DNA of 56,833 bases from a virus, in IMG/VR virus record IMGVR_UViG_3300009788_000018, positions 1-56,833 of that record; one strand, 5' to 3'. Below are positions 1-51,986 of the stretch, one piece after another. The position numbers and the translations under genes were made by a program. How positions within the stretch are numbered: the stretch's first letter is position 1; every line of letters begins with the position of its first letter. A model generated the notes under the pieces. The model was not told where the DNA came from. It searched no databases and saw only the letters and a list, made by a program, of their open reading frames with translations.

Positions 1-833
1 TCAAACTTCCAGACACCTGCGTCAGCAGTATCTGTAACATACAAATTACCGTCATCATCTTGATGAACAGCACCAATTACAATTCCAGCACCTAAATCAA
101 TTCTTCCTGCAGTTCCCCAATCAGGGTCAAGTGTTCCATCACGAAGATGTTTATAGACGTACCGAGCTAAACTACCTGAAGAGGAACGAGAAAATCCTTC
201 AATACCCAACAATGATGCTGGAAAACCTTCAACCTCAAAAGTAAAGTTCGGAATCTGTTCGCTATTTCCAAGATCATACTCATCAAAATATGCACAGCAG
301 ATATGCTTATACTCAGCAAAATCTTTATCAATCACTGCACCTATCTGAGTATTATTAAACCCTGGAAAGACTGTGAAGGCATCTAGGTCAATCTCTGTCT
401 TACCTGCCCATGCTCTTAGTACCTGGGCTGGACCATGACAGATACCAATCATGAAGGACTTTCTAAATCTTGTTTCTGTAGTCTCTCCACCACTAGAACC
501 CCCTCCACCTTTTCCGCCTCCCCCACTGGAATGTTTTATTGTGTACGGATGAGTCTCGCCCAGGAAGATAACATTACCAGCAGCTAAGTCAGTTCCATAG
601 ACTATCTGGATAGGTCCGGTCTTCCCTGCGTTCTGCACAGGATAGGTAGCCATCTCTGGCATCTTAACATCACTGTTCGCTGGGAAGATAACGGTACCTA
701 GGAAGCCACCCGCCAAACCACCAAGAGCGTAACCCATCTTAGCTCCAGCAGGACCAGCTATCATACCACCAACGATAGCTCCACCTATTGTTAAGGCCAT
801 TCGGCCAAAAGATTTTCCGCTTTCACCACTCAT
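1..833 (-). CDS. Tail tip / baseplate hub protein, N-terminal part (gene crosses the window edge)
   Basis: This is the first 277 codons of a gene that continues at 56710 and ends at 53860 (1227 residues in all). The ATG at 833 overlaps the stop of the NlpC/P60 gene (ATGA), a tight translational coupling. The N-terminus is Gly/Ala-rich and hydrophobic (residues about 12-55), then a segment reading PVQNAGKTGPIQIVYG, a Gly-rich linker and a beta-rich region. Being last in the tape measure, DUF2460, DUF2163, NlpC/P60 order of lambda- and GTA-type tails identifies it as the J-like hub that meets the receptor. No stop codon interrupts the reading frame across the circular junction. The propeller-like insert starts near residue 241. 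Confidence 0.85.
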   Translation of the reverse strand, partial: MSGESGKSFGRMALTIGGAIVGGMIAGPAGAKMGYALGGLAGGFLGTVIFPANSDVKMPEMATYPVQNAGKTGPIQIVYGTDLAAGNVIFLGETHPYTIKHSSGGGGKGGGGSSGGETTETRFRKSFMIGICHGPAQVLRAWAGKTEIDLDAFTVFPGFNNTQIGAVIDKDFAEYKHICCAYFDEYDLGNSEQIPNFTFEVEGFPASLLGIEGFSRSSSGSLARYVYKHLRDGTLDPDWGTAGRIDLGAGIVIGAVHQDDDGNLYVTDTADAGVWKF

Positions 834-1279
834 TTATATTTGCTCATCTTTCTTTCGCTAAACCTATAAGTTTTTGTCCACCTAGTGGCATGCTCAGAGT
901 TTTCTAGATATCCATATTTGCATTTTTGTTTTGCTCGGCTGTGTACGAACAGACCATCCTTAATATAAATGCCTACATGTGCATTGCATTTTCCCCATTT
1001 AAAAACAACTATATCTCCTCTTTGGAGTTCAGAGTTTGGAACAAGATCTGCCACACGTTCTAACTGAGCCACAATAATTTCAGAAGCTCCAGCATGTAGA
1101 TTCCAATCCATTTTATATTGTGGAAGAGAATAGCTCTTTAAAAGTTTTAACTCTCTAGCAATACCAATTATAAGTCCTGTACAATCGCAACCTCTACGAG
1201 TCATACCTCTATGCCGATAGGGTATATCTAGCTTTTGCCATTCAATAGCTTTGTCTGCAATTTCTTTGCTAATATCCAT
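830..1279 (-). CDS. NlpC/P60 family cysteine peptidase of the tail tip
   Basis: 149 residues. It has the NlpC/P60 motif with catalytic Cys33 in DCTGL and His101 in CNAHVGIYI, at the spacing normal for the family, plus RGDIVVF just before the His region. Members of this family at this gene position in lambda-like and GTA-type tails cleave peptidoglycan peptides or help assemble the tail tip. The start overlaps the stop of the DUF2163 gene and the end overlaps the start of the hub gene, so it is translationally coupled on both sides. It is the only clear cell-wall hydrolase in the genome and could act at entry; whether it also serves in lysis cannot be told. Confidence 0.85.
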   Translation of the reverse strand: MDISKEIADKAIEWQKLDIPYRHRGMTRRGCDCTGLIIGIARELKLLKSYSLPQYKMDWNLHAGASEIIVAQLERVADLVPNSELQRGDIVVFKWGKCNAHVGIYIKDGLFVHSRAKQKCKYGYLENSEHATRWTKTYRFSERKMSKYK

Positions 1280-2337
1280 TACATAATCGTTTCTTGTACT
1301 TTAGGTATATATAGGAACCCCAGAAAGTTAGTTTCATTCTCAAACTTATTTCTACATGCTTCCAACGCTCGTTTATCACAACCCGGATAAACATTGTAAG
1401 TAACTGTATTCAGAATAGGTGTCTGGAAAGCTACGGCCATAGTAACTACTCCACCTGAGCTTAGTATGATCATACGTTTTTCACCACTATTAGCTCCATT
1501 GGTAATCTCCATCTCGCCCATCTCGTAAAAAGTTGTATCTTCAAGAGGAGTTCCGTTTACAGTAACTGCGTTACCACCCCCAGTTATTATTTCGTCATCA
1601 GCAAACTGTGTTGTATTCTCTACATACCAAATGAATCCAGAAGACGAACCAACATAGGAAATACCAACACATTTTCCATCTCCTGCTATACTACCTGACA
1701 AACTATCGCCAATCTCGACTGGGTTATCTGAGTCTCCTCCATCAAAAGCAACCTTGTATACTATAAGGTCTGTGTCGTTAACTGTGAAATTATCTGAAGC
1801 GTCAGAAGTAGCAGCACCTGCGTATGCATGATCAGCTTGAGTTAAAGCACAACCCGTATCGTAAAGAGTATAATTACAAGGCTCTTGGAATATCTGCCTA
1901 GGTACTTGGATATTAAGACTATCCAGAATAGACTTACAACTCAGAACTAAAATTGACCTATCAAATTTTACGTCACAGGTACCGATGAACAGAATTAACT
2001 CCATATTCTCAGCGTAAGATTGATCCCAGAAAATTCGCTTAACAGTTATCTGAGCATTATCTAAAGCATTTGACTGAACTATATCAAACAGTTCTCCTGT
2101 AATATTCTGAACTCTTATCTCTACTGAATCAACCTCTAGGTTTACATTGTTACTGATAGGACCTCGAGAGATTTGTTCATGGGCATAGGTATTAGAGCCA
2201 GCATCCCAAATAAGATCTCTCTGATGGGAAGTGTAATACAGAGTAGTCCCTGTCCGTAGCACTACGGTATAAAGCTCAGCGATCTTTAAACGTTTGGCAG
2301 TTAAGAAATTTATGAAGGCAGCAGCAGGATTTTTCAT
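1279..2337 (-). CDS. DUF2163 / BR0599-type baseplate protein
   Basis: 352 residues. The N-terminus (LKIAELYTVVLRTGTTLYYT) and the central VEIRVQNITGE pattern match DUF2163, and the C-terminus with GCDKR..C..KF.N..NFLGFLYIP matches the BR0599-type C-terminal domain. In gene transfer agents and lambda-like siphophages the equivalent protein is a hub subunit that joins the Dit-like ring to the tip. The C-terminal Cys pair could bind a metal or Fe-S cluster, as proposed for relatives. It overlaps the DUF2460 gene upstream by one base and the NlpC/P60 gene downstream, so all are one operon. Confidence 0.8.
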   Translation of the reverse strand: MKNPAAAFINFLTAKRLKIAELYTVVLRTGTTLYYTSHQRDLIWDAGSNTYAHEQISRGPISNNVNLEVDSVEIRVQNITGELFDIVQSNALDNAQITVKRIFWDQSYAENMELILFIGTCDVKFDRSILVLSCKSILDSLNIQVPRQIFQEPCNYTLYDTGCALTQADHAYAGAATSDASDNFTVNDTDLIVYKVAFDGGDSDNPVEIGDSLSGSIAGDGKCVGISYVGSSSGFIWYVENTTQFADDEIITGGGNAVTVNGTPLEDTTFYEMGEMEITNGANSGEKRMIILSSGGVVTMAVAFQTPILNTVTYNVYPGCDKRALEACRNKFENETNFLGFLYIPKVQETIM

Positions 2338-2963
2338 CAGTCAAGAACCTCCATTATGTCGATGTTCCCCGCGCTCCAAATATTTTTCACATTAGAAGAA
2401 TCAGTGTAAGCATCTATATCAAATCTGACTCTAAAGTAGAAACGATAGTGAGCAGTTATAACCGCCCCTGCTCCAGGAGCTCCACTAAATATAACAATCC
2501 CAGTCGTATCGTCTAGAGTATAGTCAGTGTCCTCTACCTGAACTACACCATCAATCTTAACCGTGGGTTGGCAAATAGTTCCTGGCTGGATATCTTTTTT
2601 ATCTTCATCCCAGGATTCGGCCTCACCTGGATAGTAAGTTTTGATAAGTTGGAAATCTGTCTGAGCCGCGATGGCAGTTATACTACACTCAGTAAAGTCA
2701 CATTCAGAATCCTCAGGATCTTCGAAGAGAAAGGATAGGTAACGTCCTTTTGCTCGATTAAATAGTTCTACCAACTTAGCAATCTCATCGCCAGTTAGAT
2801 TATTATAGGGTAAAGACCAATGACGTTTGGGTTGTTCCAGAAGTTGATTAGCTACCTCAGTTCCGGAATCCATCTCAACTATGTCAGTCCTCCACTCGAA
2901 GGTTCTTCCCAGAGGATAGTTATAGAGCTTATTATCAATAAAAGTATTTAGTAGTATATTCAT
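2337..2963 (-). CDS. DUF2460 / TIGR02217-type distal tail protein
   Basis: 208 residues. The signature is the pattern R.DIVEMDSGTE, KRHWSLPYNNL and LFNRAKGRYLSFLFEDPED, typical of DUF2460 proteins, which form the distal tail (Dit-like) ring at the tail-tube end. A beta-rich second half (TVKIDGVVQVEDTDY, then VITAHYRFYFRVRFD) is also usual. It lies directly after the tape measure gene with one base between them. The position and motifs agree, so the call is firm at family level. Confidence 0.8.
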   Translation of the reverse strand: MNILLNTFIDNKLYNYPLGRTFEWRTDIVEMDSGTEVANQLLEQPKRHWSLPYNNLTGDEIAKLVELFNRAKGRYLSFLFEDPEDSECDFTECSITAIAAQTDFQLIKTYYPGEAESWDEDKKDIQPGTICQPTVKIDGVVQVEDTDYTLDDTTGIVIFSGAPGAGAVITAHYRFYFRVRFDIDAYTDSSNVKNIWSAGNIDIMEVLD

Positions 2964-2964
2964 T

Positions 2965-5058
2965 TTATTGCCTTCTTCTAGATGGATTATTATTGTTCAT
3001 TTCTCTATCCATAACAGCGGCCAACATTTTACTATTATCACTTAAGAAAGCAAAGGTTCCTGGTCCATCTATAGCTGAGACGTTAATATTTATGATTGGC
3101 CTCCCCCGACCGACTTGATCCTTAGGTGTAACCTCTTCACCTTTCTGCAAGATCGCACCAAACTCGTCAGGGGCCAGTCCTTTATGCAAGCGAGGTAGAT
3201 AATCAGATGGAATCCCATTATGCCCTGACACGAATGTTGCTCCAATTTCTCCTAGACCCATACCAGTGGCTGCTTGAGCAGTTCCTGCAGCCATTACTTG
3301 TGGGCCTCCACCACCGAATAATCCAGCTAGTAAACCTCCAAAGCCAGCTCCTGCTCCTCCTGCTGCTCCTGTCATTTGTTGGCGGATCAACATTTCTGCT
3401 TGTACTCTAATCCACTCAGCCAACATATCAGAAGCCATCTGCATAAAGGATTGCTGAATACCATCGAATACATTAATTAATCCCTGCTCAAAAGTTATGG
3501 CCTTATTTCCTAAGTCCATAAAGACATCGCTTAGACTGGCTTGGATTCTGTTACCCGCTTGGTTCCAATGATTAGCAACACTTTGAGAAACTTCTTTCTG
3601 TTGGGCCTCAGCTTCTCTAAGCCTAGTAGCTTCAATTTGCATCCTCTCTTCAGCTTCTCCCTCGTTACCAAGTCCAGCATCTATTTCTGATAGACGGGCC
3701 ATCAACTTTTCCTGACTTCCAATTATATCGACGTTGGCGGCCTCTAGTATCTTCAATGAATTTTCTTTATATTCTTTCCAAGTCTTACCAGCAGTTTCAT
3801 TGAACCCAGCAAAAGTAGACTCAGTTGCTTCTTGCAACATTTGCTGTCTTGCTAAGTTTTGCATTATAAGATTATCAGCTCCAGCATAAAACTTCTTATA
3901 TCCAACAAGCAATCCCTCACTTTGTTTCTGAAAGAAGTTTCTTTCCTCAGGAGGTCTACCATATAATTGTTCAAACATATCTTCAGCTTTAGCAAAGCCT
4001 CCTCTCCCAGGACCGGCCATTCCTTTCTTTATAGCTTGGGCAATTCCTCGACCAGTTCTAAAAGCTACATCTATAGCGAGTTTTCCTCCCAGCTCAATAG
4101 TCTGAACAAACAAATCCCAGACTACTCCCCATCCAGCAGTAAAATCGTTTGTGGCGAAGGAAATCAGATCACCGAGAATATCTTTTATAAAACCTATATG
4201 GGCTACAACTTTACTGCTCATTATACCAATCTTTTCCTCGTTATCCACGGCCCATTGATTAATTTCTCTAGCAGTTTCTTTAATGGAAGAAAGGAAAGGT
4301 TTTCCAATTGCTTCAGCTACGTCACCAATCGCATTCCACATTTGTTTTAATGCACCACTTGCGGTATCGACGTCTTTAGCCATTCCACCGAACTGTCCTT
4401 CGAGTTCTGTCAAGATCAGATCTTGAGCTTTAGCTATTTGATTAGTGTCCATAAACTGTTGGACCATTTTCTTTTGCTGGTCAGTAAACTTGACACCCAC
4501 ACGACTTAATGCGGTCATACCGACCATAGGATCATTAAGAGCTTTACCTAATTGGATTGACGAAGCACTGAGATCAACAGTCCTACCAGTAACTGCTGCC
4601 ATACCTGTTGCCATGTCAAGCGTAGCCTCAGTTGCTCTTTGGAACACATCTCCTTTTATGCTTTTGAAAGTAAGCAGCATAGTTTGTAATGCGATGATTG
4701 ATTCATCACCAAACCTTGTTACCTTTTGTAGAGCTGCAGCTTGTTCTAGTAATTCTCTTTTGGTAAGTCCCGCAGCATGTTGTGTTGCTTTAAGAGTGAT
4801 GGCTAATCTTTTTTCAACATCCTCCTGCTTCATAGCCGCACGAGTTACTAAGAGGAAAGCTCCTGCTAATGCAAGTGCTCCAACCTTAGCAACTCGTACC
4901 ATCTTATCGAAAGCTGATTTGAATGAAGCAGACATTCGTTTGAAAGTCTTTTCTATTCTATCCACAGTCCTAGTGACTAAGCCTCTAGCTTTGTCTAGTT
5001 GGGCTTTGACCTTAGCAGAATCAAGTTTTAATTCGATGTCAGCGGTAAAGAAATTCAT
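2965..5058 (-). CDS. Tail tape measure protein
   Basis: 697 residues, the longest tail gene apart from the hub. The N-terminal third is helical with a hydrophobic segment (about residues 56-72, VAKVGALALAGAFLLV). A lambda-H/TP901-like region with GMTALSRVGVKFTDQQ and a Gly-rich C-terminal part (AGGAGAGFGG, GLFGGGG) follow. Tape measures set tail length and are ejected with the DNA; 697 residues would predict a tail of very roughly 100 nm by the usual 1.5 angstrom per residue rule. The ATG at 5058 overlaps the stop of the frameshifted chaperone product, as expected for the G-GT-H arrangement. Long plus-strand ORFs inside it are shadows. Confidence 0.88.
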   Translation of the reverse strand: MNFFTADIELKLDSAKVKAQLDKARGLVTRTVDRIEKTFKRMSASFKSAFDKMVRVAKVGALALAGAFLLVTRAAMKQEDVEKRLAITLKATQHAAGLTKRELLEQAAALQKVTRFGDESIIALQTMLLTFKSIKGDVFQRATEATLDMATGMAAVTGRTVDLSASSIQLGKALNDPMVGMTALSRVGVKFTDQQKKMVQQFMDTNQIAKAQDLILTELEGQFGGMAKDVDTASGALKQMWNAIGDVAEAIGKPFLSSIKETAREINQWAVDNEEKIGIMSSKVVAHIGFIKDILGDLISFATNDFTAGWGVVWDLFVQTIELGGKLAIDVAFRTGRGIAQAIKKGMAGPGRGGFAKAEDMFEQLYGRPPEERNFFQKQSEGLLVGYKKFYAGADNLIMQNLARQQMLQEATESTFAGFNETAGKTWKEYKENSLKILEAANVDIIGSQEKLMARLSEIDAGLGNEGEAEERMQIEATRLREAEAQQKEVSQSVANHWNQAGNRIQASLSDVFMDLGNKAITFEQGLINVFDGIQQSFMQMASDMLAEWIRVQAEMLIRQQMTGAAGGAGAGFGGLLAGLFGGGGPQVMAAGTAQAATGMGLGEIGATFVSGHNGIPSDYLPRLHKGLAPDEFGAILQKGEEVTPKDQVGRGRPIININVSAIDGPGTFAFLSDNSKMLAAVMDREMNNNNPSRRRQ

Positions 5059-27880: not shown

Positions 27881-27893
27881 AGGAGTAAGGCAA

Positions 27894-28433
27894 ATGAGTA
27901 CAGAACTAGCCAAACAAATAGTGGACAGATTTAGTAGATTGGGACATCGACTTTCAACCCACAACATGAGATTTAATCTTTGCCAGAACATTCCAAATCA
28001 TGACCTCCTTGAGTTTATTGAATTTGTGCTCGATGAGTCAGCCAAAGATGAATCGGCTAAAACTGTTGAAGAAACAACTGCAGATTCTATGCTAGAGATA
28101 GGACAACTGTCCGACGAAATAACTAAGCTATTAACAGATCTTCGTTTTCAGCTTGTTATAGGACATGATGTAGTTCCTCCTGAGTTAATTACCAGGATTG
28201 ATAGTTTAGTAATCAAACCAACTCCCAAGATAAAAGACAAAGTAAAGATTATGTATCTGGGGGCGAATGATCAACGCAATCTCCATCCTAAATACTTAGG
28301 TGAAGAAGGAGTTGTTGTAGGCATAAAGGTTGAGTTGGATTATCCTTATCCTTACTACGTCCAAGTTCCAGGAGTACCTATCATGCAGTTCCAAGCAAAA
28401 GAACTTGAGATCATAAAGAAAGGAGTCTCATGA
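27894..28433 (+). CDS. Hypothetical protein with C-terminal barrel
   Basis: 179 residues. The N-terminal 110 residues are helical and acidic; the C-terminal 65 (KDKVKIMYLGAND, LGEEGVVVGIKVELD, YYVQVPG) look like a small beta barrel of the KOW/Tudor type. It has the recurrent early ribosome site AAAGGAGTAAGGCAAATG. Confidence 0.6.
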   Translation: MSTELAKQIVDRFSRLGHRLSTHNMRFNLCQNIPNHDLLEFIEFVLDESAKDESAKTVEETTADSMLEIGQLSDEITKLLTDLRFQLVIGHDVVPPELITRIDSLVIKPTPKIKDKVKIMYLGANDQRNLHPKYLGEEGVVVGIKVELDYPYPYYVQVPGVPIMQFQAKELEIIKKGVS

Positions 28434-29698: not shown

Positions 29699-29814
29699 TG
29701 ATTAGAAAATTAATGGTTCTACGATTACGGTTCTTTCTATTGCTCGGAGCGATAGAGCTAAGAATTCGTTTTGGCAAACCTCTAGGAGGTACACGACAAT
29801 GGAATTCATGTTAA
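29698..29814 (+). CDS. Small basic hydrophobic protein (possible)
   Basis: 38 residues, beginning in the previous stop (TAATG). It reads MIRKLMVLRLRFFLLLGAIE followed by a basic end, like a small membrane peptide, and its last codons overlap the next gene. It may instead be only a spacer that carries the next ribosome site. Confidence 0.4.
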   Translation: MIRKLMVLRLRFFLLLGAIELRIRFGKPLGGTRQWNSC

Positions 29815-30537: not shown

Positions 30538-30780
30538 ATGCCAAAGCAACAAAACAAATTTGGAGCAAAGAAGCTGGCTATGAAACAGTCTAAACGAGAC
30601 AGGGAGAAAGTTAAAGCTATCGCTAAGGCTGACGCTTTAAAGCCCATCGGAGGAAAGTGCCCTGAGTGTAAGCTGCGTATTCGTACCAATGATATGGGTA
30701 AGCATCGGGCAGGTATTAGTCATATTCGTCGTGTTGGTGTGTCGACGGATCGCACAAAGTACGGCGGCGGTCACAAATGA
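30538..30780 (+). CDS. Small zinc-finger-like basic protein
   Basis: 80 residues, basic start (PKQQNKFGAKKLAMKQSKRD), then CPECKLRIRTNDMGKHRAGISH, a CxxC..HxxxxxH zinc-finger pattern. Probably nucleic-acid binding. Its start carries the recurrent early site AAAGGAGCAAGGCAATG. Confidence 0.65.
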   Translation: MPKQQNKFGAKKLAMKQSKRDREKVKAIAKADALKPIGGKCPECKLRIRTNDMGKHRAGISHIRRVGVSTDRTKYGGGHK

Positions 30781-35350: not shown

Positions 35351-36397
35351 ATGGCAAATTCATTGTTAATAGTAGAAAACCCATTTGAGAAGCCCCCTAT
35401 AATTCCTAAGAGATTTGGTTGGTCGTACTCTACTCAAAAGCTTTTTAGGAAATGTAAGCGCAAGTTCTTCTGGACCAAGATATTTAGGTTACGATCACGG
35501 AGAGAAGCTGCTCCATTGGTCATCAGTAGTGCTGGACACGAAGGTCTAGAACTATGGTATCGTTTTCCAAAAGTACGAATGAGGAAAGTGGCTGACCGGA
35601 TTGTCAAAGAGACTAAAGCTAGGCTTGAAGGTAACTCTCGTTTTTATAACCAAGATGATTATGATAGCTTGATGATCTTGTTAGATACCGTCACAGGTAT
35701 GCTGATGGGCTATGCTAGTCATTACGCCAGTGACCGAAAGAGATGGAAGATCGCTAAGGAAGGTGTTGAAGCGTGGTTCGATATCAATATGGGCCGATTC
35801 GACTACAGAGGTAAGATAGACTTGCTTCCTATCATCAACGGTAAGCAACGGGTGATGGATCATAAAATCATCAGTAAACTTGATGGAGCTTTTATAGAAG
35901 CTCTTCCAATGGATGGACAGTTGAGAAGTTATCTGCTAGGAACTAGAAGAGGTTTAAACCTTCAACCTAAGCAGGTTACTTACAATATGATCAAGAAGTG
36001 TAAACTAAGGAGGAAGTCCAACGAGTCACTTAAAGAATTCTCTGACCGAATTCAACTTGATTATATGAACAGAGCTGAATTCTACTTCCATCGAGAAACT
36101 CTTACATTTACCAAAGCTGAGATAGCTAACTTCGTGTACAGTTTAGAAACAACTAACGCTGAATACGAATGGCTCCTTAGCAGAATGGATAATCCTCTTG
36201 ATCCACAAGAGTGGCCAGAGGCAGATCATAACTGTGGAGAGTTCTTTAAGACCTGTGAATTCTTCTCCCTTTGTCACGAGGGCTTAGATCGTGGAACAGG
36301 TCAATTATTTTGCCAATATAATCCGGAGAAGAAAAATGCCACCAAAAAGAAAAAAGTCGTCAAAAAAGGTAAAGGTAAAGGCAAAAAGAAAAAGTGA
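35351..36397 (+). CDS. PD-(D/E)XK nuclease with Cys cluster
   Basis: 348 residues. RecB/Cas4-like: YSTQKLFRKCKRKFFWT start, GHEGLELWY, RGKIDLLPI with the first Asp and MDHKI with D-x-K, then QLRSYLLG. The C-terminal C..F..TC..FSLCH and FCQYNP may form a 4Fe-4S site. Lys-rich tail. It would process DNA ends in recombination with the following RecA-like ATPase. Confidence 0.82.
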   Translation: MANSLLIVENPFEKPPIIPKRFGWSYSTQKLFRKCKRKFFWTKIFRLRSRREAAPLVISSAGHEGLELWYRFPKVRMRKVADRIVKETKARLEGNSRFYNQDDYDSLMILLDTVTGMLMGYASHYASDRKRWKIAKEGVEAWFDINMGRFDYRGKIDLLPIINGKQRVMDHKIISKLDGAFIEALPMDGQLRSYLLGTRRGLNLQPKQVTYNMIKKCKLRRKSNESLKEFSDRIQLDYMNRAEFYFHRETLTFTKAEIANFVYSLETTNAEYEWLLSRMDNPLDPQEWPEADHNCGEFFKTCEFFSLCHEGLDRGTGQLFCQYNPEKKNATKKKKVVKKGKGKGKKKK

Positions 36398-45824: not shown

Positions 45825-46274
45825 ATGTTTAATGATGATAGACCTAAACGTAGGAATATCTATATGAGGTTTGCTTTGGATTGGGCAGGTCGAGCTTTGT
45901 GTAAGCAGGATAATCGAGCTGTAGGTTGTGTGATCACTACCGAAGATATGAGAGTAACTTTGGCCACAGGCTACAATGGTCCACCTAAGCAACTAGGTAA
46001 TGACGCTTGTCGTAATGAGAAAGGTAACTGTGGCTGTCTTCATGCTGAAGCCAACGCGATTGCTATGGTAGATGGACGAATACCAAACAAGATCATGTTC
46101 GTAACGATGTGTCCTTGCGAAACTTGTGCTACTCTCATTGCTCAGAGCAATATTACCAAGGTTTTTTATTACCAAGATTATCGGAATAAAGCTGGTTTAG
46201 AAAGATTACAAGCATGCGGAATAGACGTAATAAGAATAAACGATCTAGGTTGCTCCCGCCCTTACCTTGTCTAG
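45825..46274 (+). CDS. dCMP deaminase
   Basis: 149 residues. Zinc motifs CLHAEANAIAM (HAE) near residue 66 and MCPCETCATLI (PCxxC) near 95. It converts dCMP to dUMP for ThyX. If the ThyA-like enzyme uses dCMP, the two compete. GAAGGGAGCG precedes the start. The end overlaps the polymerase ORF by 61 bases. Confidence 0.88.
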   Translation: MFNDDRPKRRNIYMRFALDWAGRALCKQDNRAVGCVITTEDMRVTLATGYNGPPKQLGNDACRNEKGNCGCLHAEANAIAMVDGRIPNKIMFVTMCPCETCATLIAQSNITKVFYYQDYRNKAGLERLQACGIDVIRINDLGCSRPYLV

Positions 46275-48256
46275 AAGGTAACGTAGTTGCAATTGATACC
46301 GAGACTACGGGTTTAAATCCGTATGACAATGGTGTTCACGACAAGTTCGGGAATGCTTCAGGAGCTCGTATCTTTTGCTGGAGTTACAAAACTAGCAAGG
46401 GTGAGTGGGGCTTCATGCTAAAGAATCCTCGGAACATTCGTTGGCTAAAGCGATTGATGAATGACCCTACTAAGCATATAGTATTTCAAAATGCTAAGTT
46501 CGATTTAAAGATGCTTTCCTTCGAAGGTCTCGATGTCCTTAGTCTTAAGGCAGACATCCATTGCACGATGATCCTATCCAAGGTACTGGACTCAGTAGAG
46601 AAGCGTCACAATCTGAGGTTCTTGGCCAGGAAGCATCTTGGCTGGACCACCGAAGATAAAGACGAGATTGAGTACTGGTTGAAAACTAATAAGCGGAGCT
46701 TTACCAAAGAGCATGGACGATCTCCAAACTTTAGAGATGCCCCTCTTAGTCTAGTCAAGGACAGAGTTAGGTGGGACACTGAAGCTACATTGGAAATCTT
46801 TGGAGTGCTTTATCCTCGAGCTCGCCGCATCTGTAACGAGCTTTACGAAACAGAACGGCATTTACTCTTTGTCTGTCTGGACATGGAAAGTACGGGAGTG
46901 TTGATTGATATAACCCGAGCTAGAGAGTTAAAGGCCGAAGCCCAGATTACCTTGGATAGAATCAAAGCTGACTTGGATAAACTGATATGTCCTCTTACCT
47001 TCGAGAAGAAAAAGAAAGGTGAGATGATAAAAGTAACTGTAGATGAGTTTAATCCTGGTAGTAGTGCTTTGCAGTTACCGGCAGCTTTCGAGAAGCTAGG
47101 AATTCCATTAAAGTATAAGACCAAACCAAAGAAGAACCACAAGACAGGTGGTAAGACAGGAGGAGGTAACTGGGCCTTCGATGAATACGCAATGATCCGC
47201 TATGTGTCTGAACCATTGGTGGATGTCATTCGAGATTCAGGAGAAGAGGGCTGGCCAGGAGATAAGTTTTACAGGGCTGTTAGGAAAACTGTACGGAAGC
47301 ATAAACTAAATAAGCGAGAGTTGCTACCACCGCTGATTTTAAAATATAGGCAGCTCTCGAAGATGATCTCTACTTATTATGATCATTTCATCAACGACTG
47401 CTTGGACGTACATTTCACACCTGCTGGTATAGAAATAGGAACGATACACTGTAAGTTTAATCAGAGTACAGCTATGACCGGAAGGTTTAGTTCATCTGAG
47501 GTTAACCTACAAAATCAGCCTAGAAAACTTGGGCCTCGCGAATGCTTTATTACCAGGAACGGTCGGAACCATTATCACTTCGACTATGATCAGATAGAGA
47601 TGAAGATGTTTGTTCACTTTGCCGAAGATACCAAGATGGCTGAGGCAATCAAAGATGATATTCATGCACACGTAGCTGCAGAAGTATATAACATTCCTCT
47701 CGAGGAGGTAACCTCAGAAAGAAGGAAGCGAGCAAAGGGAGTTAACTTTGGAATTATATATGGCTCAGGTCCTGCCACTATGGCCGAGACTTTAACTAAG
47801 AAAGGCTTACCAACTACAGTAGCCCAATCAACTAGACTAGTTCTGGGTTACCATAAGAAGTTCCCATCTGTTCAACGAACTGTTCGTGAACTGAAGCAAG
47901 ATCTGAAACAGAAAGGCTATGTTACAAATCCATTCGGCCGTAGGTATCGGATCAAACTGAAGTTTGCATATAAAGCTTTGAACTATATGTGTCAAGGTAC
48001 TTCGGCAGACCAGATGAAAAAAGCTATGGTCGATATTTGGTATTGGTTGAGAGAGAATAATCTGAAGAGCAAGATGATCCTGACTGTACATGATGAAATA
48101 GTACTAGAGGTTCCACCAGTCGAAGAGAGACTTGTGCTGCCTAAGGTTAAAGCAATCATGGAAGACCTGGAAACTTACTTTGTTCCTATGACCGTATCAG
48201 TAGAGAAGGTCGCCATGAACTGGAGTAAAAAAGAAAAAATTAAACTTGCAGCCTGA
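46214..48256 (+). CDS. Family A DNA polymerase with 3'-5' exonuclease
   Basis: 680 residues. Exonuclease motif I AIDTETTGL near residue 30, motif II FQNAKFDLKML near 95. Polymerase motif A HFDYDQIEMKM near 458, motif B RRKRAKGVNFGIIYG near 507, motif C LTVHDEIVLEVP near 625. Phe follows Asn in motif B at the E. coli Phe762 position. No 5' nuclease domain. The start overlaps the deaminase; the ribosome site is weak, so a downstream start is possible. The stop lies inside the next promoter. Confidence 0.9.
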   Translation: MRNRRNKNKRSRLLPPLPCLEGNVVAIDTETTGLNPYDNGVHDKFGNASGARIFCWSYKTSKGEWGFMLKNPRNIRWLKRLMNDPTKHIVFQNAKFDLKMLSFEGLDVLSLKADIHCTMILSKVLDSVEKRHNLRFLARKHLGWTTEDKDEIEYWLKTNKRSFTKEHGRSPNFRDAPLSLVKDRVRWDTEATLEIFGVLYPRARRICNELYETERHLLFVCLDMESTGVLIDITRARELKAEAQITLDRIKADLDKLICPLTFEKKKKGEMIKVTVDEFNPGSSALQLPAAFEKLGIPLKYKTKPKKNHKTGGKTGGGNWAFDEYAMIRYVSEPLVDVIRDSGEEGWPGDKFYRAVRKTVRKHKLNKRELLPPLILKYRQLSKMISTYYDHFINDCLDVHFTPAGIEIGTIHCKFNQSTAMTGRFSSSEVNLQNQPRKLGPRECFITRNGRNHYHFDYDQIEMKMFVHFAEDTKMAEAIKDDIHAHVAAEVYNIPLEEVTSERRKRAKGVNFGIIYGSGPATMAETLTKKGLPTTVAQSTRLVLGYHKKFPSVQRTVRELKQDLKQKGYVTNPFGRRYRIKLKFAYKALNYMCQGTSADQMKKAMVDIWYWLRENNLKSKMILTVHDEIVLEVPPVEERLVLPKVKAIMEDLETYFVPMTVSVEKVAMNWSKKEKIKLAA

Positions 48257-48281
48257 CAAATAAAATAGCTTATGGTATATT
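48253..48281 (+). promoter_or_regulatory. Promoter of the terminal early cassette
   Basis: -35 CTGACA (48253-48258), 17-bp spacer ending TTATGG, -10 TATATT (48276-48281). It shares the CTGACA, spacing and TTATGG with the first early promoter at 26303. The polymerase stop codon overlaps the -35. Confidence 0.72.
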
Positions 48282-48287
48282 AATATC

Positions 48288-48417
48288 TAAGCTGACTTAG
48301 GAAACAGTAGTTGTTAATCAAGGAGGTGATCATGAAATATCGGAAACAGTAGTCCAAGGATGGAAGAGGGACCCTGCCACTATGCAATTTGCCTTGCTCC
48401 GGTGGTGGGGTTTTTTT
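48288..48417 (+). ncRNA. Short leader RNA with full anti-16S Shine-Dalgarno and six-residue ORF
   Basis: Predicted from the promoter start (about 48288) to the terminator T-run. It carries AAGGAGGTGATC at 48320-48331, the complement of 12 nt of the 16S rRNA 3' end, and an ORF ATG..TAG at 48332-48352 encoding MKYRKQ. The element GGAAACAGTAG occurs at 48300-48310 and 48342-48352, on both sides. Possible attenuator leader or ribosome-binding decoy RNA. Confidence 0.55.
48371..48417 (+). terminator. Intrinsic terminator / attenuator
   Basis: Stem 48371-48380 with 48402-48411 (10 pairs including two G-T), followed by seven T to 48417. It ends the short leader; read-through would reach the 48637 gene. 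Confidence 0.72.
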
Positions 48418-48636
48418 ATGTCCTCATCGGAACCGCACGCAGCAGGCATACCCATGATAGGCCGGATTAAGTTATTTTTGAACTATTTTTCTGTGTAAGT
48501 CTTTTATTTACAATGACTTAACATAAATTTTGGTCCAAAAATGGTATTTTTATGGCTATAGGAGCCCTTATCCTATATAATTTACATGTACCTAATAGGG
48601 GCCGACGATATAAACCTTATTTAAAGGAGCAAGGCA
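48418..48636 (+). other. Untranslated region with hairpin related to the 52.5-kb repeats
   Basis: 219 bases without a gene. At 48494-48522 it has GTGTAAGTC and GACTTAAC arms around an AT-rich loop, similar to but shorter than the 29-bp repeats at 52541 and 52613. It ends in the recurrent AAAGGAGCAAGGCAATG site. Confidence 0.45.
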
Positions 48637-49041
48637 ATGAATCAGGTAACAAACTTATTACAGAAGTTGGCAAAGGCTAAGACCGCAACTGAGAAGAGGA
48701 GCATCAGGATTCGTCTTCGAAAGCTTGGCCACATCGGAGGGACTCGAGGTAAGGTCGTCGAGCCTAAACCTAAAAAGGAATTAACCAAAAAACAAAAGGA
48801 AAGTATCGGTAAACACAATGACGAAGTAACTCGTCGAATTAAATCCGGAGAGTATCGGGTTGACTTTTCAAATACAGGAGGGAGCAATAAAAAAACTTGT
48901 TGGAACTGTCAGAAATACAAATCTTGCCGTAGGAGTTTAAAAAAGAATAATATCAATCCAAAAGATCCTAGCAATGAAGCTATTAAGTTATGTTCAGTTT
49001 GGCGCCTGAACAAAGAAAGGAGCAAGGCAAATGGTAAGTAA
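48637..49041 (+). CDS. LGHTGG-module protein with Cys-rich domain
   Basis: 134 residues. The module is at the N-terminus here (residues about 5-37, RSIRIRLRKLGHIGGTR), then a Lys-rich linker and CWNCQKYKSCRRSLKK near residue 88, with a fourth Cys near 125 (KLCSVWRL), a possible Fe-S or zinc site. Recurrent early start site. First gene of the terminal early cassette. Confidence 0.65.
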   Translation: MNQVTNLLQKLAKAKTATEKRSIRIRLRKLGHIGGTRGKVVEPKPKKELTKKQKESIGKHNDEVTRRIKSGEYRVDFSNTGGSNKKTCWNCQKYKSCRRSLKKNNINPKDPSNEAIKLCSVWRLNKERSKANGK

Positions 49042-50305
49042 AAATAAAAAGGTCAGTAAGAAGAAGCCGTCCCCAAAACCAACACTTCTTACTCACACTG
49101 AGGACAACGTCCTATTCATCGACGAGATCAAGGTTCCTGACAAGTGGAGTCCTGCTACCGATACCTTAGACAAGCTACTCAATCAGGCTGAGGTACTTGC
49201 TAAAACTGAGGGGGCCTTGTCGATCAAGATCAATGTCAAAGGTAAACTGAGCAAGTCCATAGCTGAGAGGCATAAGTTTAAGGAGATAGGAAAGCTCCCT
49301 ACCAAGCCTGTCACTTACATCATGAAGCGGAACCTTAACTTCGAGGCCAGGGCAGAGAAACCTATCAACCCTAAGTACAGAACACCGACTCAGCTTATCG
49401 AAGCTATCACCAAGGACCTACAACAGTTAATGAACCGGTCAGAGGATATTACTGATATAGGTCACGAGGTAGTAGCAGCTGAGAAGACTTCCAAGATACT
49501 GTCTCGCCGGTCAGCCAACGGGAAGTACTCGCTTAATCCTCACAGGTTCCACCGACTGATACTCGACGAGATATCAGGCTCTGGCCTTGGCCGCTTAGTT
49601 AAAGAGGCCCTGAAGGATAGGCCTGACCTTAAGGTTTTAAAAACAGACGAGGAAGATATTAAGGAAGGTAAGAGAAGACGCAAGAGTATCCTGGCCGGCA
49701 ACATGGCCAAGGAGCTTAAGGTACAAGCCAAGGTAATACTGAAGCAGATGGACGCCGACGTCAACGGCTTAGTATCTGATAGACAACTGATGATGAGTTG
49801 TAAGGCTGAGGTGGCCAGGACGGCTAAACTAGTAGTTAACAATTTAAAGGAAATGGAAACAAGTTTAGATAACTTAGAAAAATGGAAAGGGGTAATTCAA
49901 AACAGGTCAAGGGTATTACGTCTTCATAGACGAAAAGAGATAGCACTAAGCGAGAAGATCTTCGGTGATAGCCCTGCCGAACTAACTTCTAAAAAATCCA
50001 CAAGGGCTGACAAAGGAGATTCAGAAATGGCAAAGAAAAAAGTAAAGAAAGCAAAGAAGGCTGCACCAAAAGGGAACATCAAGGAATTGATCGCCAAGCT
50101 TGGCAAGACAAAGGACCCAACCGAAAAACGTAAGATCCGTCAGCAGCTGAGGAAGCTCGGTCACACCGGTGGACTCGGTCAGGGAGCCGGTCGTCCTAAG
50201 AAGAGCAAGAAGAAAACTTCCAAGAAGAAAACCAGCAAGAAGGTTAGCAAGAAAGCCAAGAAGGCTAAAGGCAAGAAGAAGTATTCCAAGAAGGCTAAGA
50301 AGTAA
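49031..50305 (+). CDS. Large basic protein with LGHTGG module and histone-like tail
   Basis: 424 residues. Residues about 20-120 look like an alpha/beta fold; 120-310 are helical and charged; about 350-385 carry the module KRKIRQQLRKLGHTGG; the last 40 are SKKK-type Lys repeats. The start overlaps the previous gene by 11 bases and has AAAGGAGCAAGGCAAATG. An internal ATG at 50027 with a strong site would make only the basic C-terminus. Confidence 0.65.
   Translation: MVSKNKKVSKKKPSPKPTLLTHTEDNVLFIDEIKVPDKWSPATDTLDKLLNQAEVLAKTEGALSIKINVKGKLSKSIAERHKFKEIGKLPTKPVTYIMKRNLNFEARAEKPINPKYRTPTQLIEAITKDLQQLMNRSEDITDIGHEVVAAEKTSKILSRRSANGKYSLNPHRFHRLILDEISGSGLGRLVKEALKDRPDLKVLKTDEEDIKEGKRRRKSILAGNMAKELKVQAKVILKQMDADVNGLVSDRQLMMSCKAEVARTAKLVVNNLKEMETSLDNLEKWKGVIQNRSRVLRLHRRKEIALSEKIFGDSPAELTSKKSTRADKGDSEMAKKKVKKAKKAAPKGNIKELIAKLGKTKDPTEKRKIRQQLRKLGHTGGLGQGAGRPKKSKKKTSKKKTSKKVSKKAKKAKGKKKYSKKAKK
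50027..50305 (+). CDS. Nested basic protein (internal in-frame start)
   Basis: 92 residues from ATG 50027. AAAGGAG at 50012-50018 lies eight bases upstream. The product MAKKKVKKAKKAAPKGN... has the module and the Lys tail only, a histone H1-like protein. The ribosome sequence and its peptide KGDS(E)M repeat the nested start of the scaffold gene. Confidence 0.6.
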   Translation: MAKKKVKKAKKAAPKGNIKELIAKLGKTKDPTEKRKIRQQLRKLGHTGGLGQGAGRPKKSKKKTSKKKTSKKVSKKAKKAKGKKKYSKKAKK

Positions 50306-50412
50306 GAGCCGAAACCTGTCCTTACTTAAAAGGGCAGGTCTGTCAGGTTGGTAACTGGCATTGATAAGGTAGCCAAAGAAATAACTATAACTTTTAGTTA
50401 AGGAGTAAGGCA

Positions 50413-50568
50413 ATGACAATTCTAACTGAGGCCGATACAGATCTGCATGAAGAAATTCTTGATCGGGTAGAGAAAGAAAGTTTTAGGGATTTTAATTTTA
50501 TTGATGAAGAAACTAAAGCTATGATCCATGAAGAAGAAATGTTCAGATGGATTCATACATTTTGTTAA
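50413..50568 (+). CDS. Small acidic protein
   Basis: 51 residues, strongly acidic (EADTDLHEEILDRVEKES), with C-terminal FRWIHTFC. Start site AAGGAGTAAGGCAATG. Its acidity among very basic neighbours suggests a partner or inhibitor for them. Confidence 0.65.
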   Translation: MTILTEADTDLHEEILDRVEKESFRDFNFIDEETKAMIHEEEMFRWIHTFC

Positions 50569-50586
50569 GAAAGGAGCAAGGCAAAA

Positions 50587-51558
50587 ATGGCAAAGAGTAT
50601 ACAATGGAAAAAAGATGACCGTGTAATGGTAGACTTTGGAGAGGAGTTCTTCAAAGGAACCATTACTAAACTAGTAAGGCAGGGAGCTAAAGTACACTTC
50701 GATGATGGTGAGACCCACGATATAAAATGTTCCAAGCTAGTAAGGCTTAGAGCTAAGAAGCAGAACCTTGGTTCTAAAGCAAAGGCCAGAACCAAAGAAG
50801 AAGCAGGAGGACAAGGTTTTACTCAGTACGTGGTAAAGTGGGATGGTGTTAACTTTAAAGTTAAGGCTGATGAGGGCGAGTTTTATGGATGGTGGAGAAA
50901 GATCCGGGTAAAGGACAGTGACGAGTCAGGTTACGGTGTTGATATCATGGTACGGTATGAAAATCACATATATAATGTAGAGTCCATCCGATATCTTATA
51001 GAAGATCCAAGGGATGATCTGGAATCTCTAAACGCTGATATCTGTGCTGCCATCAATAAGTGGTTCCACTACAAATGTAAAGGTACTTTCGACACTATCA
51101 AAGATCTTCAGCAACGAGCGGAGAAGCCTATGATCAGGGTCTCCCAACTATCAACGATCGACCAGATGATCATTGACCTGAAGGCCTACCGAGATACTGC
51201 CCTGCGGTGTGGTGGTCGTAGGACCATGGCCCTTGAGGGGGATAATCCTGACACCGAACCTAGCATGAGAATTGAGATAGACCTATCTGCTCAAGCTGCG
51301 ACCATGAAGGGCAGTAGAGTTCCACCCGTAGGTGAAGGACTGCTATTCGACAACGTAGCTAAGGACATATCCAAAGGAGGCAAGAACCGAAAGGCTATGT
51401 CAACTAAGGTGGAAGGTAACTCGGATAACATCAAGGGTATTCTTAAACGGCTAGAGAAAACTACTGATAAGGCAGAGCGACGTAAGCTCCGAGGCATTCT
51501 GAGAAAGATGGGCCACACCGGTGGAACAAGAAAGAAAACTAAGAAGGGCAAGAAGTAA
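50587..51558 (+). CDS. Tudor-like and LGHTGG-module protein
   Basis: 323 residues. Residues 5-58 (KDDRVMVDFGEEFFKGTITK, VHFDDGETHDI) form a Tudor/KOW-like barrel like the repeats of the ssDNA-binding protein. The middle (about 75-215) is an alpha/beta region with QYVVKWDGVNFKVKADEGE. The C-terminus has the module RRKLRGILRKMGHTGGTR and a Lys tail. AAAGGAGCAAGGCAAAA precedes it. It joins two modules seen separately elsewhere. Confidence 0.65.
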   Translation: MAKSIQWKKDDRVMVDFGEEFFKGTITKLVRQGAKVHFDDGETHDIKCSKLVRLRAKKQNLGSKAKARTKEEAGGQGFTQYVVKWDGVNFKVKADEGEFYGWWRKIRVKDSDESGYGVDIMVRYENHIYNVESIRYLIEDPRDDLESLNADICAAINKWFHYKCKGTFDTIKDLQQRAEKPMIRVSQLSTIDQMIIDLKAYRDTALRCGGRRTMALEGDNPDTEPSMRIEIDLSAQAATMKGSRVPPVGEGLLFDNVAKDISKGGKNRKAMSTKVEGNSDNIKGILKRLEKTTDKAERRKLRGILRKMGHTGGTRKKTKKGKK

Positions 51559-51715: not shown

Positions 51716-51752
51716 ATCAGAAACTAAAATTTTATGTTAAAGGAGCAAGACA

Positions 51753-51986
51753 ATGGCAAAGACAAGTAAAAAGAAAACATCAAAGAAGGACAGAGCACTG
51801 AGTATAACTACCGATGATGGTTACCTTGTAGTTAAGATCCCGTTGAACGACGAGCCGTTCCCTCTTTCCAAATCGGAGAAGAGTCAGGTGATCGCCACTA
51901 CCCATGGTAACGCTACTACGGATCTGAGTCTCAACGGCACACCTGTAATCTTGGGCCTCAATGCTTATATTAAGAATAATAAGTAG
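51753..51986 (+). CDS. Small hypothetical protein with Lys-rich start
   Basis: 77 residues: MAKTSKKKTSKKDRALSITT, then a beta-type region with DGYLVVKIPLNDEPFPLSKS. Start site AAAGGAGCAAGACAATG. No family recognised. Confidence 0.6.
   Translation: MAKTSKKKTSKKDRALSITTDDGYLVVKIPLNDEPFPLSKSEKSQVIATTHGNATTDLSLNGTPVILGLNAYIKNNK

Follow-up and report, generated by a model that had tools for sequence, protein, structure and literature searches.

A predicted small RNA unit downstream of the DNA polymerase gene

The DNA analysed here, called the window throughout and taken at its full length, comprises the 56,833 bases of a phage record. The tape-measure, portal, terminase and head genes are found on the minus strand and the replication genes on the plus strand. 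ORF 46214-48256 encodes a family A DNA polymerase, and directly 3' of it lies a predicted RNA unit composed of the following features:

48253..48281, plus strand: sigma-70-like promoter-like site, CTGACA-17-TATATT, agreeing with the consensus at 10 of 12 bases, the -10 being extended by TG; consensus match only
48300..48311 (copy 1) and 48342-48353 (copy 2), plus strand: direct repeat GGAAACAGTAGT, from the repeat search
48320..48331, plus strand: strong Shine-Dalgarno sequence AAGGAGGTGATC of a mini-ORF; single exact copy in the window
48332..48352, plus strand: mini-ORF MKYRKQ, with ATG at 48332 and TAG at 48350-48352
48365..48417, plus strand: terminator hairpin of the predicted sRNA, with a 17-bp stem that includes the A/U run
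48389..48400, plus strand: antisense loop TTGCCTTGCTCC, part of the terminator loop; its exact reverse complement is GGAGCAAGGCAA

The hairpin, with a short flank included, has a minimum free energy of -27.6 kcal/mol (z -3.15), while the 5' part of the unit folds no better than its shuffles (z 1.43). Within the loop, the fold prediction pairs the guide bases UUGC with an upstream GCAA, forming an inner helix, and leaves UUGCC and UCC unpaired. The mini-ORF ends 12 nt before the terminator stem. Regarding the own promoter and terminator expected of a trans-acting sRNA, the intrinsic terminator is present and the promoter is predicted from its consensus match.

An earlier note on this DNA had described the region as a promoter, a 12-nt match to the 16S rRNA tail, a six-residue ORF and a strong terminator, and all of these can be recognized at the coordinates listed above. 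Measured against what we take to be the 16S rRNA tail, the complementarity of AAGGAGGTGATC spans 12 nt, compared with a maximum of 7 nt at the 81 predicted gene starts. The accompanying statement that normal ribosome sites of this phage use only AAAGGAG is wrong, as illustrated by AGGAGGT at 29799. The note also overlooked that the terminator loop and a downstream gene start form a perfect inverted match over 12 nt. As a prediction, the short, separate regulatory RNA of some 130 nt that it put forward has good support.

Complementarity between the terminator loop and gene starts

The complement of the loop, GGAGCAAGGCAA, is an extended ribosome-binding site (RBS) which stands immediately before start codons of the phage's own genes. 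Seven gene starts (ORFs 27894, 30538, 35351, 48637, 49031, 50413 and 50587) are complementary to the loop when no more than one G-U pair is allowed, and an eighth (ORF 51753) has one mismatch with it:

27882..27893, plus strand: target RBS GGAGTAAGGCAA (one G-U) of ORF 27894-28433, 179 aa
30527..30538, plus strand: target RBS GGAGCAAGGCAA of ORF 30538-30780, 80 aa
35339..35350, plus strand: target RBS GGAGTAAGGCAA (one G-U) of ORF 35351-36397, PD-(D/E)XK exonuclease
48626..48637, plus strand: target RBS GGAGCAAGGCAA of ORF 48637-49041, 134 aa, basic; perfect 12-nt match, from the repeat search
49019..49030, plus strand: target RBS GGAGCAAGGCAA of ORF 49031-50305, 424 aa, basic C-terminus; 14 contiguous pairs
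50402..50413, plus strand: target RBS GGAGTAAGGCAA (one G-U) of ORF 50413-50568, 51 aa
50573..50584, plus strand: target RBS GGAGCAAGGCAA of ORF 50587-51558, 323 aa, Tudor/KOW-like N-terminus and basic C-terminus
51742..51753, plus strand: possible target RBS GGAGCAAGACAA (one mismatch) of ORF 51753-51986

The targets thus lie on either side of the terminator, the upstream ones at 27.9-35.4 kb and the downstream ones at 48.6-51.8 kb. When the whole window was scanned, allowing either G-U pairs and no mismatch or one mismatch, all 8 sites other than the loop itself (whose minus-strand copy was counted as a ninth) were located at start codons.

Several controls were used for evaluating how often such complementarity arises by chance. 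A first control, based on 11-mers with one G-U pair and all internal starts, was abandoned: other stretches scored equal to the loop or higher (9 against 7 in the window, and 10 in the relative G007), and it was replaced by a 12-mer control because it was too permissive to discriminate. In the latter, each 12-mer outside the start regions was considered, and the genes with a complementary start (at most one G-U) were counted once each. The loop ranks first in the window and in its nearest relative R1, with 7 genes in both cases against 3 for the next 12-mer (an independent one in the window), and in the relative G006 (6 genes, next 3). No excess was found in four other records: a single target is present in each of G004 and G005, and G007 and G008 have loops that are not leading. 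When the 635 start regions of the window were ranked by duplex energy, the seven lowest were those of the same seven target genes. At least 10 contiguous Watson-Crick pairs are formed at 7 of these 635 starts, the next best start reaching 9. The corresponding counts are 9/473 starts in R1, 1/1219 in G004, 1/156 in G005, 6/561 in G006, 2/672 in G007, 1/982 in G008 and 4/1066 in G010; two of the four starts in G010 are clear ribosome sites and the other two may be chance. The G004 target ranks only fifth by duplex energy, in a GC-rich genome.

As a further control, 188 hairpin calls at 158 polymerase loci (1.36 Mb in all) were surveyed, and loops with a start complement of at least 11 nt occur only in loci of the window's polymerase family, once as a second hairpin (L381/L382). 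The exact 17-mer of the RBS was also looked up in other viral contigs: out of 55 rows, 54 loci were checked (the remaining row being L120), and only one of them, L136 from the G004 record, also had the antisense 12-mer.

Presence of the unit among related phages

Relatives were gathered through polymerase searches in IMG/VR, in which near-identical records were merged, as were the two halves of R1; this gave 13 further records (14 with the window) with a polymerase at least 47% identical in the best segment. Among isolated phages, no close relatives were found by DNA or for the 323-aa target protein; the polymerase matches isolated phages only below 60% identity, and its relatives in bacterial genomes are only about 30% identical. 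In one of the relatives, L004, the DNA polymerase (463-3393) carries an in-frame insertion of about 300 aa, which judged by eye reads like an intein.

A terminator-like hairpin after the polymerase with a loop fitting a gene start is present in 8 of the 14 records. The fit extends over 11-14 contiguous pairs in the window, R1, G004, G005, G006 and G010, and is weak in G007 and G008, the candidate in G008 having 9 contiguous pairs only and not being specific. In the other six records (L004, L380, L384, L386, L388 and L413), some of which are fragments, the loop-start match is missing: L004 has a mini-ORF and no hairpin, and L380 has a hairpin with no loop match. The hairpins of R1, G004, G005, G006, G007, G008 and G010 are comparable to that of the window, although the T run after the stem is weak in G004. 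Those of G004, G005, G006, G007 and G010 come after the polymerase region, the one in G006 at 907 nt 3' of the polymerase, beyond an extra ORF. Promoter-like sites were found upstream of the hairpin in the window, R1 (which retains CTGACA-17-TATATT), G005, G006 and G007, while the search returned no good site in G004, G008 and G010. The single targets of G004 and G005 lie just downstream of the hairpin, whereas G006 also has a distant target.

The 5' part of the unit is far less constant. In R1 the counterpart of the 12-nt 16S match is AAGGGAGTTGATC, so that the match is lost, while the MKYRKQ peptide is retained there with its stop codon changed from TAG to TAA; the direct repeat GGAAACAGTAGT shows no conservation in R1. 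The 16S match and the mini-ORF are absent from most other relatives, and no mini-ORF with a strong Shine-Dalgarno sequence was seen in the stretches examined of G004, G005, G006, G007 and G010. Other mini-ORFs do occur at the same place: very strong Shine-Dalgarno sequences precede a five-codon ORF in L004 (3510-3545, MNKLL) and a two-codon ORF in L212 (7290-7315, MK), right after the polymerase and with a layout like that of MKYRKQ. The mini-ORF is dispensable for the hairpin arrangement, and the 16S match was rejected as the functional core of the unit since R1 loses it and most other hairpins lack such a leader. Strong ribosome sites act as 5' stabilisers in leaders of phage SP82 and B. subtilis; our guess is that the strong Shine-Dalgarno sequence and mini-ORF are perhaps an added 5' part of this kind in some lineages.

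Joint change of the loop and the gene starts

Three clear loop/start codes can be distinguished among the relatives. In the first, the loop GCCTTGCTCC is found together with GGAGCAAGGC starts in the window, R1, G004 and G005, and imperfectly in G007, where the loop ends in CCCC. The second is that of G006, in which the loop TTGCGTTGCTCC accompanies six GGAGCAA(C/T)GCAA starts; GGAGCAACGCAA is the RBS form corresponding to a loop of this type, and no GGAGYAAGGCAA is present in the G006 record. The third is that of G010, with the loop TTCTTGCTCCTA and two AGGAGCAAGAA starts which are, besides the loop, the only copies in 53.6 kb. The stems are almost entirely different among the phages, and the complementarity of the loops is retained.

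Every loop was scored against the target set of every phage in a loop by RBS matrix. The G006 loop scores 12.4 against its own targets and 6.8-7.0 against the others, and the G010 loop 11.5 against its own and at most 9.5 against the others. By contrast, the G007 loop, which has an A-C mismatch with two of its three sites, reaches only 9.5 on its own targets, which are better fitted by the loop of the window (12.3), and the G008 loop (9.0) fits its own sites no better than those of other phages. Overall, 24 of the 40320 reassignments of loops reach the real matrix score.

A comparison at shorter distance is provided by R1, for which the nucleotide identity with the window is 71-88% depending on the stretch. 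The nine bases upstream of the start are 89-100% identical for the 8 target starts, against a mean of 79% (range 22-100%) for 25 other starts, nine further starts having been dropped as unalignable. In the R1 start of ORF 30538, a C to T change preserves pairing through G-U, and another change costs one pair. Two traits expected of a trans-acting sRNA are seen here: the loop is complementary to several mRNAs whose genes lie elsewhere, and compensatory change has taken place. What these sequence comparisons show to be kept, and in two relatives jointly altered, is the loop together with its complementary ribosome-binding sites.

Proposed mechanism and alternative explanations

Considering the above, we find it likely that the unit encodes a phage sRNA whose terminator-loop guide pairs with shared ribosome-binding sites and represses a phage regulon in trans. 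Given the match of its loop to seven gene starts, and the joint alteration of loop and starts in some distant relatives, the RNA probably turns off several viral genes in concert. The predicted RNA would measure about 130 nt in the window and about 60-80 nt in several relatives, these lengths being derived from the promoter-like sites. Its terminator loop would serve as a guide for the extended RBS, that is the Shine-Dalgarno sequence and the spacer up to the start codon; the UUGCC and UCC bases left unpaired in the fold could start the pairing, which would hide the Shine-Dalgarno sequence and the start codon from the 30S subunit, so that the marked genes would be repressed together, in trans. 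By analogy with known antisense RNAs, a loop covering the Shine-Dalgarno sequence, the spacer and part of the start codon is expected to block initiation. What the sequences show is the anatomy of the unit, the 12-nt complementarity with seven gene starts, its conservation, and the parallel alteration of loop and targets in two relatives; the production of the RNA, its pairing in the cell, its repressive effect and the timing of its action are what we infer.

Action in trans is the simplest reading because the targets are located both upstream and downstream of the terminator. A hairpin acting only in cis, whether by forming the 3' terminus of the polymerase operon or through its loop folding onto gene starts of the same mRNA in read-through transcripts, would agree with its being a terminator placed after the polymerase gene, as well as with the single targets immediately downstream in G004 and G005. 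However, one cis transcript ending at the terminator would not reach both groups of window targets (27.9-35.4 kb and 48.6-51.8 kb), as they are on opposite sides of it. The distant target in G006 and the own promoter-like sites of several phages also speak against a purely cis-acting element, which we therefore consider improbable. Even less credit can be given to the idea that the shared spacer is a protein-binding site or a copied RBS, with the inverted copy in the hairpin due to chance or descent and without any pairing function. The motif stands at many starts and could have spread through gene copying, and a basic motif is common to several of the target genes, but the loop and several targets changed jointly in G006 and G010, and the loops are retained where the stems diverge. 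As no start codon follows closely after the motif on the opposite strand in G004 or G010, the hairpin is not simply an inverted gene start.

The earlier note had proposed another role for the unit, namely an attenuator sensing ribosome supply or a decoy occupying anti-Shine-Dalgarno ends, on the basis of the six-codon ORF and the 12-nt complementarity to 16S rRNA. The match does exist and greatly exceeds in length those at other starts, the peptide is retained in R1 despite the altered stop codon, and strong Shine-Dalgarno sequences with mini-ORFs also exist in L212 and L004. Yet the 12-nt match is lost in R1, and no such mini-ORF was seen in the examined stretches of G004-G007 and G010. Nor was the leader ORF over mutually exclusive terminator and anti-terminator structures, typical of a peptide- or ribosome-sensing attenuator, found here: no anti-terminator arrangement is seen, since the mini-ORF stops 12 nt short of the stem and the 5' part folds like its shuffles. 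Neither role is supported, both are in our opinion very unlikely, and the trans-acting sRNA is the reading retained below.

Comparison with known regulatory RNAs

No match to any RNA family, c4 included, was obtained with Rfam at the gathering score over the whole window. At E up to 5, positions 48240-48660 gave five chance-level families of eukaryotic or archaeal type and no phage or bacterial small-RNA family. In the open-access literature, outside of which most subscription papers and bioRxiv lie, we found no report of this RNA family or of a phage RNA reading a shared RBS code. The nearest known phage system is the c4 RNA of P1 and P7, whose loops, in the section of a review that treats it, pair with the ribosome-binding region of the ant mRNA and block translation, and which is important for the heteroimmunity between P1 and P7 (PMC12197685). 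The window RNA is c4-like in that it would be phage-encoded with a loop complementary to the ribosome-binding region of a phage gene. It differs from c4, described in that section with one target mRNA, in that its loop fits seven starts over 24 kb, in that the guide is located in the terminator loop, and in that no antirepressor family appears among its eight scanned target proteins, whereas the target of c4 is the antirepressor ant. The same review lists P22 sar and lambda OOP as phage RNAs controlling phage mRNAs through pairing, sar interfering with the initiation of ant translation, and portrays phage antisense RNAs as mostly directed at one phage mRNA each (PMC12197685). Unlike sar and OOP, presented there with a single target mRNA each, the window RNA has its locus away from most of its targets.

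Among bacterial sRNAs, LhrC, RsaE, RNAIII, SprD and FsrA carry C-rich UCCC motifs pairing with Shine-Dalgarno regions of mRNAs, and in LhrC one of the pairing motifs is in the terminator loop, according to the part of PMC4132741 concerned with these motifs. As opposed to these host-encoded sRNAs, the window RNA is encoded by a phage (their sequence relation having been compared through Rfam only), and its predicted pairing takes in the spacer as far as the start codon, with specificity for a subset of the phage's genes. The window offers a case in which one RNA and a multi-gene phage regulon are indicated by sequence evolution alone, with compensatory change between one RNA loop and several gene starts simultaneously. 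It suggests that the spacer between Shine-Dalgarno sequence and start codon can carry regulatory information, and would represent a compact natural design, with one guide loop silencing every gene that has the chosen RBS barcode.

Target proteins and hammerhead ribozymes

The targets comprise an exonuclease, basic proteins, a Tudor-like protein and small proteins of no recognized type. A family scan of the eight target proteins identified the product of ORF 35351 as a PD-(D/E)XK exonuclease; the other 7 of 8 had no family match, and no antirepressor family was found. The basic proteins have a family motif like KRxxRxxLRxLGHxGG and lysine-rich tails, and are encoded at 48637-51558 of the window as well as in L120, L188, L195, L382 and L212; the products of ORFs 48637, 49031 and 50587 have no Pfam or PHROG match. 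Proteins of the 50587 type carry the target site in several relatives. Modelling gave an N-terminal barrel (mean pLDDT 67, pTM 0.32) for which KOW and Tudor domains were the top hits in the PDB, no hit having an E of 0.001 or below.

Type II hammerhead ribozymes (RF02276) are located about 20 nt 5' of target RBSs in three relatives, the targets concerned being those of R1, G007 and G008, with a further copy in the window:

L120, 3136-3200: hammerhead, above gathering score
L195, 7564-7633: hammerhead, above gathering score
L212, 9436-9507: hammerhead, above gathering score
Window, 50307-50378: hammerhead copy with core changes, scoring 32.3 (cut-off 37)

Type II hammerheads flanking phage genes are already described in the relevant part of PMC3088659, and the ones found here may trim target mRNAs. 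A wider and more speculative picture, which we regard as rather unlikely, is that of a private, drifting code in which a 7-nt barcode between Shine-Dalgarno sequence and AUG would mark the regulon and be read by the terminator-loop RNA. Phages sharing a code would silence one another and those with other codes (G006, G010) would escape, which would create immunity groups as in P1/P7, and the hammerheads would trim some target mRNAs just 5' of the barcode.

Finally, the stretch between the hairpin and the first gene of the cassette (48420-48600) contains repeated inverted motifs of the GTAAGT...ACTTAC kind, and the stretch is conserved between the window and R1. Comparable stretches are found in L187 (8090-8350), L188 (7930-8130) and L195 (6540-6750), and the stretch could be an origin or operator region.
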